From assembly GCF_000017625.1 (NCBI RefSeq), contig NC_009712.1, positions 434,001-498,000 of the forward strand: a stretch of DNA of 64,000 bases, given 5' to 3'. Below are positions 39,659 through 41,052 of this stretch, piece after piece. Numbering within the stretch: position 1 is the first letter of the stretch; each line of letters begins with the position of its first letter. Origin of the DNA: Methanoregula boonei 6A8 (GTDB lineage Archaea; Halobacteriota; Methanomicrobia; Methanomicrobiales; Methanospirillaceae). Below the pieces are notes generated by a model. The model ran no database searches and was not told where the DNA came from. It saw only the letters and a program-made list of their open reading frames with translations. The position numbers and the translations under genes are program-made.

Positions 39659-39758
39659 TTGCCCATTTTTATGAGTTTTTCTGACAGGGACCGCAGGTTC
39701 GTTCCGGTATCATTTTCCGTCATGCCGGGTGCAGGTAACCGGGGTAAAAACAAAATAT

Positions 39759-39935
39759 CCCTGCGTGACCCCCCATTATAGTCCTATGCACGAGAAGACC
39801 GATTTCTCTTCTGTAATCTCCATGTTAATTGCACATGTCTTGCCTGATCCTGCATGGGGTCATGTGGTGCAAAAGTGCCGGGATATAAGATTTTTCTTCG
39901 TAACATAGGGAAATACCTGTGGGGGGTCAGGCAGG
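39759..39935. repeat. Nested inverted-repeat element, candidate structured RNA or MITE
   Basis: The outer arms CCCTGC(G)TGACCCCCCA (39759-39775) and TGGGGGGTCA(G)GCAGGG (39919-39935) are complementary over 17 nt with one mismatch. Inside them, CCTATG (39783-39788) pairs with CATAGG (39903-39908), and TTGCACATG (39829-39837) with CATGTG-G-TGCAA (39861-39872). All pairs are nested in order, so the whole could fold into one long stem with internal loops. No transposase gene is present. Confidence 0.5.
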
Positions 39936-39943
39936 GTAAAAGT

Positions 39944-39974
39944 GCGGGGCCAGCAAAAAGCGTCAGCTGGCCCC
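39944..39974. other. Strong 10-bp hairpin
   Basis: CGGGGCCAGC (39944-39953) is fully complementary to GCTGGCCCCG (39965-39974), with an 11-nt loop. It starts only 9 nt after the nested inverted repeat ends, so the two may belong to one RNA. There is no T run after it, so it is not a typical terminator. Confidence 0.55.
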
Positions 39975-40020
39975 GGGCAAATTGACAAAGTATCTATGAT
40001 CGGGCAACAGAGCAACCTTC

Positions 40021-41052
40021 ATGGCCTGTCCCGTGTGTGGCGGTGACTGTGTACGTCCGGCGCAGGAGGTACTTGCAGCACTTCCCACGCTGTTTGTGCC
40101 CTGTCCCTTCTGCCGGATGCAGGTCCTTGACAAACGTGCCCCTCTTCCGGTACTGGACTATCCCGAACCCTGTTCCTGCGGGAGACGATTTATCGATGGC
40201 GTGTTTGCACACCTGTATGTCATCATGTGGGAGGAAGGCGATCTCCTGCCCCATGATCCCTTAATTGCAGTCGGCTCCCCGCTCATCCATCCGGGGCTTG
40301 CCCTGGATCATCCCCCGTTTCTCCCCACAAAATCTCTCCTGCTGCTCTCGGGAAAGGTAACGCAGAAGACTGCCCGCAGGATAGTTGCCGAAGTTCCCGA
40401 AGTAAAAGGCGTTGTGAGAACCATCCCGGGCATCCCGGGTCTCGCATCCCATGAACCGGGTGCCGTCCCTTGCGCCCACACGCTCCTTGCAGGCTGCGAT
40501 GTCCGGGCCGATCTCTTCCCGTTGGGGGAGGGTACCCTTGTCGTGTACAAGCAGCAGTCGGTCATTCATGTCGAGTTTCCTCGCGCCGGCTATCCCAAGG
40601 TACGGGCAGTCGCCGCCCATACGGGAAAACCCCCGGTTCCTCTCTTTATCGATGCCTGTTCGGGGCCCGGGACGCTCGGCCTTGCCGCAGCAGGGCTTGG
40701 AGTCCCGCATGTCATTATGAACGATGCGTGGTATGCCGCTGCGTTCTGGTCTGCCGTCAATATCGGTGTTAACCGTGCCCTTTTTGCTATCGATGACGTG
40801 AAGATCAGTGTGCAGTACGCAGAGATGGCGACCCGTCCGGTTGTGCAGATGCCGGAAAAGATTGCCGAGGCCCGGGGGCAGCAGATCCTTGAGGTGTACC
40901 AGGGAGACTTCCGGCACCTCATGTCAGTGATCCCCCGGGATACGCACCTGGTAACGGCGCTGGACATTTTTGACAAGCAGGATCGGGGCACTGTCGCTGC
41001 CCTTCTTCACGACTGGCAGGACCGGGTGGGCGGCGAGGTCTTTGTTCCCTGA
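40021..41052 (+). CDS. Cysteine-rich protein with AdoMet-methyltransferase-like domain
   Basis: 343 residues. The N-terminus holds CPVCGGDC, CPFC and CSCGRRF (4-54), probably zinc ribbons. The C-terminal 150 residues have a Rossmann start similar to AdoMet-dependent methyltransferases: FIDACSGPGTLGLAAAGLGVPHVIMND (about 210-236), where the glycines and the acid at the end of strand 2 are in the expected places. The middle (about 75-200) is unassigned. I know no characterised relative; it may modify RNA or protein. Stand-alone gene upstream of the SRP RNA. Confidence 0.6.
   Translation: MACPVCGGDCVRPAQEVLAALPTLFVPCPFCRMQVLDKRAPLPVLDYPEPCSCGRRFIDGVFAHLYVIMWEEGDLLPHDPLIAVGSPLIHPGLALDHPPFLPTKSLLLLSGKVTQKTARRIVAEVPEVKGVVRTIPGIPGLASHEPGAVPCAHTLLAGCDVRADLFPLGEGTLVVYKQQSVIHVEFPRAGYPKVRAVAAHTGKPPVPLFIDACSGPGTLGLAAAGLGVPHVIMNDAWYAAAFWSAVNIGVNRALFAIDDVKISVQYAEMATRPVVQMPEKIAEARGQQILEVYQGDFRHLMSVIPRDTHLVTALDIFDKQDRGTVAALLHDWQDRVGGEVFVP

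Follow-up and report, generated by a model that had tools for sequence, protein, structure and literature searches.

A dispersed family of three-box intergenic DNA elements in Methanoregula, with one copy 3' of a tRNA pair in Methanoregula boonei 6A8

The window analyzed here, a 64,000-nucleotide stretch of the Methanoregula boonei 6A8 genome, carries a group of nested inverted repeats 3' of a tRNA pair, in the spacer between tRNA-Met and a coding sequence. A gene for a 343-aa protein lies between this feature and the SRP RNA gene; it occurs in 33 of the 39 genus genomes, and its product has no match in Pfam or NCBIfam. An earlier note, based on the letters of the sequence, had described outer arms, an inner 6-bp pair, a further inner pair and a separate 10-bp hairpin, and had read the nested pairs as one long fold, possibly that of a structured RNA not yet described, or else a MITE. 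All four pairs are present (Table 1), with the small correction that the 17-nt outer arms, which contain one mismatch, are separated by 144 rather than 143 nt. When folded, the region was far below dinucleotide shuffles on both the plus strand (z -5.85) and the minus strand (z -5.79), and 0 of 200 shuffles were as good as the native fold energy. Near-equal fold strength on both strands is what would be expected of a DNA inverted repeat of any kind.

Overlooked in the earlier note was that a single box of ~24 bp, with the core GGGGGTC, occurs three times here, as the two outer arms and as the CATGTGGTGCAA segment. We scanned ~128,000 window positions with a matrix that excluded the window, its nine boxes being taken from three loci elsewhere in the genome, and the left, right and middle boxes came out at ranks 1, 2 and 3, with scores of 23.9, 21.5 and 21.4 as compared with 10.9 for the next best position. 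A matrix of 230 boxes that left out this genome placed the right box at rank 1, the left at rank 3 and the middle at rank 11 of the ~128,000. The left-to-middle distance of 98 bp is a canonical spacing of the family, for which ~0.0008 would be expected by chance in a 9-bp range, and the right box is the sole match to GGGGGGTCRGGCRGKGTA (≤1 mismatch) in the 2.54-Mb genome. By box sequence, the window feature is thus a member of a three-box Methanoregula family. It is a slightly atypical member, as the boxes run in the order - + + with a last step of 67 bp and the right box is missing in the ortholog; the 98-bp step from - to + is in keeping with the family. One more candidate box, near 39675-39700, had a poor score and is not claimed.

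Table 1. Coordinates of the features at the locus and of the other three-box loci of M. boonei 6A8 (window positions unless a locus is named).
Feature	Position	Strand	Remarks
Sequence common to window and G032	39687-39981	.	25 other genus members lack it in their tRNA-Met/CDS spacer; borders approximate, from alignment
Left box GGGGGTCACGCAGGGATATTTTGT (left outer arm)	39750-39773	-	Kept in G032
Middle box TGGGGTCATGTGGTGCAAAAGTGC, overlaps CATGTGGTGCAA	39855-39878	+	Kept in G032
Right box GGGGGTCAGGCAGGGTAAAAGTGC (right outer arm)	39922-39945	+	Not conserved in G032
Outer arms, 17 nt	39759-39775 / 39920-39936		One mismatch
6-bp inner pair, left half (CCTATG)	39783-39788	+	Partner CATAGG at 39904-39909; not conserved in G032
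Further inner pair TTGCACATG / CATGTGGTGCAA	39829-39837 / 39861-39872
Spacer motif TTTTTCTTCGTAA	39891-39903	+	Related to family motif TTNCGWCGNAA; G032 has TTTTCGTCGTAA
Separate 10-bp hairpin CGGGGCCAGC / GCTGGCCCCG	39945-39975	+	Arms 39945-39954 / 39966-39975; absent from G032
343-aa protein gene	40021-41052	+
Three-box loci elsewhere in the genome	L347:1228-1523, L351:1289-1524, L353:1500-1753		Near 2,254, 2,297 and 2,321.6 kb

We compared 30 genus loci. The tRNA-Met/CDS spacer is empty in 25 of them (88–130 nt), whereas it measures 383 and 378 nt in the pair formed by the window genome and G032; G003 and G010 hold other sequence at this site, and the contig of G011 stops too early. The best explanation is that the element was already in this spacer in the common ancestor of M. 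boonei 6A8 and G032. At the G032 site the left and middle boxes are present while the right box and the final hairpin are absent, which places the 10-bp hairpin outside the shared element. The long left-right pairing is not kept in this sole ortholog, and on the best explanation the hairpin fold would be a by-product of the opposing boxes. The spacer of G003 (L033) is filled by an inverted repeat of another kind, GC-rich and dispersed (CCGCCGCCCCCGAAGGGGC...), which is also found at L013 (G021).

A search for further copies, which the earlier note had suggested, gave a divided answer: the 2,542,943-bp single-contig genome has no second full-length copy, but fragments of the right arm recur in relatives and boxes occur at three loci of the same genome. 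These loci are three-box elements in a local dialect, GGGGGTCA..., and some of their flanks resemble element flanks in other species. With three same-dialect loci found in its own genome, the window copy was no longer considered a decayed relic. Matches to GGGGGGTCRGGCRGKGTA (≤1 mismatch) occur in 22 of the 39 Methanoregula genomes, compared with none for a reversed control, and heavy carriers have >10 boxes each. By this pattern the box is absent from the other 17 genomes, where either it has diverged or whatever function it may have can be done without. A scan for paired-box hairpins in the genomes of 84,980 species returned mainly Methanoregula and Methanomicrobiales records; its bacterial matches were isolated single occurrences that we treated as chance. 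Within the order, 25 of 199 genomes have a match and 18 of these belong to Methanoregula; outside the genus, six genomes have one or two one-mismatch matches each, and G208, of the same family, has three. The box family is thus nearly restricted to the genus. We found no description of three-box repeats in a literature search that was largely without subscription papers, and this family of intergenic elements is apparently new to description.

The architecture of the family is regular. Among 103 distinct clusters, at most three of which are affected by the inclusion of three bacterial chance records (L267-L269), there are 54 +-+ triplets, 25 -+ pairs, 17 single boxes, 4 +- pairs and 3 other layouts. 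First spacings cluster at 104–110, about 150–165 and 218–246 bp and second spacings at 95–103 and 116–122 bp, with outliers in both. The near-palindromic TTNCGWCGNAA is found, mostly near the midpoint, in 10 of 61 and 13 of 81 spacers as compared with ~0.8 in shuffles, an enrichment that is optimistic since the motif was picked after viewing the spacers. An association with tRNA genes was discarded (a tRNA gene lay no farther than 500 nt away for 6 of 78 elements, 3.8 being expected), as was a viral origin: IMG/VR gave a single match, and neither the genes nor the remaining boxes of the matching contig fit. Invertible DNA was likewise rejected: spacers at shared positions match forward and not reversed, no spacer inversion was seen in oriented triplets, and the minus-strand spacer matches stem from two-box copies of arbitrary orientation plus one unflipped four-box copy.

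We then asked how boxes and spacers fare at locus pairs that share flanks between genomes; 16 pairs were submitted, one was missing from the set and 15 were compared. As the loci were collected via intact boxes, box identities at shared positions are biased upward, and they should be read with this in mind: in 10 of the 15 pairs the boxes are 92–100% identical and the spacers only 43–79% (for example, 98 versus 45% and 94 versus 43%). In the other five, box identity is 58, 60, 78, 88 and 90%, and some of these set different classes, or a triplet and a two-box copy, side by side. Box spacing in shared triplets is kept to about 2–3 bp, and neutral decay does not easily account for triplets that hold almost the same spacing while their spacers can barely be aligned.

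Box sequences fall into several dialects, and the boxes of any one element are fairly uniform in this respect; averaged over 57 triplets, boxes of the same element differ at 1.3 of 10 outer positions, versus 2.7 for boxes of different elements. Complete triplets beside one gene family in six genomes (L347, L234, L229, L263, L232 and L273) all lie the same way round toward the gene and use three dialects, each nearly uniform per element apart from one deviant box in L263. L184 fits this gene-adjoining pattern except that it has no third box under the strict core used, and L158 consists of two boxes. Genome G060 has two copies of the same gene family, one with dialect C (L229) and one with dialect A (L158), and the two dialects are found together in each of the single genomes G030, G060 and G061. 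This coexistence indicates that dialect tracks element lineage and not species, and the notion of species-specific dialects was withdrawn on the same grounds. Shared positions occupied by different dialects could represent independent insertions beside the same gene family.

These properties bear on what kind of element the family is. That the window copy folds strongly, and that the other copies in its own genome also fold (z -4.7, -2.4 and -3.8 against mononucleotide shuffles), would agree with a structured non-coding RNA or an RNA regulatory element, a reading that we nevertheless regard as very improbable. The fold is equally strong on the opposite strand, the long left-right pairing of the window is not conserved in G032, and the orientation of triplets to neighboring genes is random (12, 12, 9 and 8 by simple ORF calls). 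Within the window, Rfam at gathering score recovers only tRNAs and the SRP RNA, and nothing at the element. The primary sequence is conserved with almost no covariation, a double change being seen in only 1 of 24 and 1 of 17 pairs predicted by the consensus folds; this is the outcome that the earlier note had named as counting against a structured RNA, and that half of its proposal is not supported. Complementarity between partner boxes does not exceed that of same-class shuffled partners (permutation p 0.22 for middle and 0.94 for last boxes, with a weaker first-middle trend at p 0.05–0.16), and mismatches are uncompensated. A further rival reading, that of dispersed replication-related sites, is also very improbable, if marginally less so. 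It holds that one box class carries dyads like those of Orc1/Cdc6 origin recognition boxes (ORB) and would be origin-like or would titrate the initiator. The third box of the GGGGGGTCGGGCAGGGG class is often preceded by TCCANNGGAA at the box spacing of the genus oriC, and the best cases of this class exceed the 99.9th percentile of background, with one perfect match; the other main class does not rise above background, nor does any of the three window boxes, and >10 boxes per genome in heavy carriers also argue against origins. The family thus resembles archaeal ORBs in its G-string core and in having one class fused to an ORB-like dyad, and differs from them in its many copies per genome and in that the window boxes and the commonest class have no dyad. 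Window boxes as origin boxes were rejected on this point, as they lack the TCCANNGGAA dyad upstream of the G-string, which only the GGGGGGTCGGGCAGGGG class has. Dyad-bearing copies of that class include L177:320-438, L233:3578-3696 and L192:6825-6943, among others, and have a second, inverted dyad in the same hairpin.

A more serious rival to a protein-binding model is a MITE family mobilized in trans, in which the boxes would be sites for the transposase, internal or subterminal, and the window copy would be an old fixed insertion without host function; we see this as a real possibility, albeit one that we would bet against. The MITE suggestion of the earlier note is borne out in part, by the site that is empty in 25 relatives, by the dispersed, multicopy nature of the family, and by four box-bearing units of 332–336 bp (~334 bp; L156, L185, L213 and L240) whose ends are of the TGCTCTGTAGAAA type and whose 8-bp target duplications are perfect, from which it follows that part of the family has transposed. 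Dialects coexisting in one genome fit separate element lineages, and the same spacer in G003 is occupied by another dispersed repeat. What does not fit is that the terminal inverted repeats (TIRs) of the four units lie outside the boxes (TIRs in this position are present in some class A copies), that most copies are without recognized TGCTCTGTAGAAA-type ends, and that boxes outlast spacers at many shared positions. At the window copy no TIR was recognized, and no target duplication was identified at its approximate borders. Neither the Y1 nor the IS1595 family yielded a partner transposase for the box units across the genus: PF01797 (Y1_Tnp) is found in 5 of 39 genomes, which do not include the heaviest carriers G030, G060 and G061 or G000, and the IS1595-type transposase genes of the genus are not flanked by TGCTCTGTAGAAA-type ends, for which reason IS1595 was dismissed as the partner. 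Like MITEs, which are known in archaea such as Staphylothermus marinus (PMC2678158), the family is short, non-coding and dispersed and has inverted repeats, to which a subset adds TIRs and target duplications of 8 bp. Unlike MITEs, it has three boxes in place of two ends, boxes that lie inside the TIRs where TIRs exist, and boxes that survive at many shared positions while spacers diverge. With bacterial REPINs (PMC3116915) and BIMEs it has in common units that alternate in orientation, preferred spacings and many intergenic copies, but its box is not itself palindromic, with pairing running between boxes, and triplets dominate; a REPIN with its RAYT was set aside, as the RAYT-type (Y1) transposase is missing from the main carriers. 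Boxless ~230-bp units with TGCTCTGTAGAAA-type ends also occur (L149:829-1061, L199:5944-6172 and L214:810-1041), which suggests a second MITE family in the genus.

Taken together, the family looks more like protein-binding sites, partly carried by mobile elements, than like structured RNA. We put about even confidence in the reading that the window feature is one copy of a Methanoregula-specific dispersed three-box family that acts as protein-bound double-stranded DNA, with some copies spread by MITEs. The family would most likely work as double-stranded DNA, and a putative sequence-specific protein, whose binding we infer from the conservation of the boxes, would occupy them. Bound boxes would probably be brought together into a looped complex, which may serve chromosome organization, replication control or local transcription. 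Some copies have spread inside MITE-like units. A narrower version of the protein-bound element, which we advance tentatively and consider rather doubtful as a whole, is a lineage-specific nucleoprotein element with three boxes at set spacings, recognized by one putative protein or a few paralogues, each of which would have its own dialect, so that every box of an element would be of one dialect. Such elements would persist in place across species and would spread, in part, by hitchhiking in MITEs.

In several genomes a ~175-aa protein (L347:1561-2085; homologues in L234, L229, L232, L273, L125 and L263) adjoins a box element. No Pfam family scored above cut-off for this protein. Its AlphaFold model has a mean pLDDT of 82.6 and a pTM of 0.77, and a search of the model against the PDB gave a single match at E < 0.001, which was thiamine triphosphatase at a TM-score of ~0.3. 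With no Pfam family and no convincing PDB match (best TM-scores near 0.3), the protein is not identified as DNA-binding, and it was rejected as the box binder.

More generally, nested inverted repeats that fold strongly on two strands can be caused by opposed DNA boxes rather than by RNA. Multicopy, spaced boxes that outlast their surroundings and share a dialect within each element are the expected trace of a sequence-specific DNA-binding protein, and identifying the binder would offer a route into how the environmental methanogens of the genus Methanoregula organize their chromosomes or control their genes.
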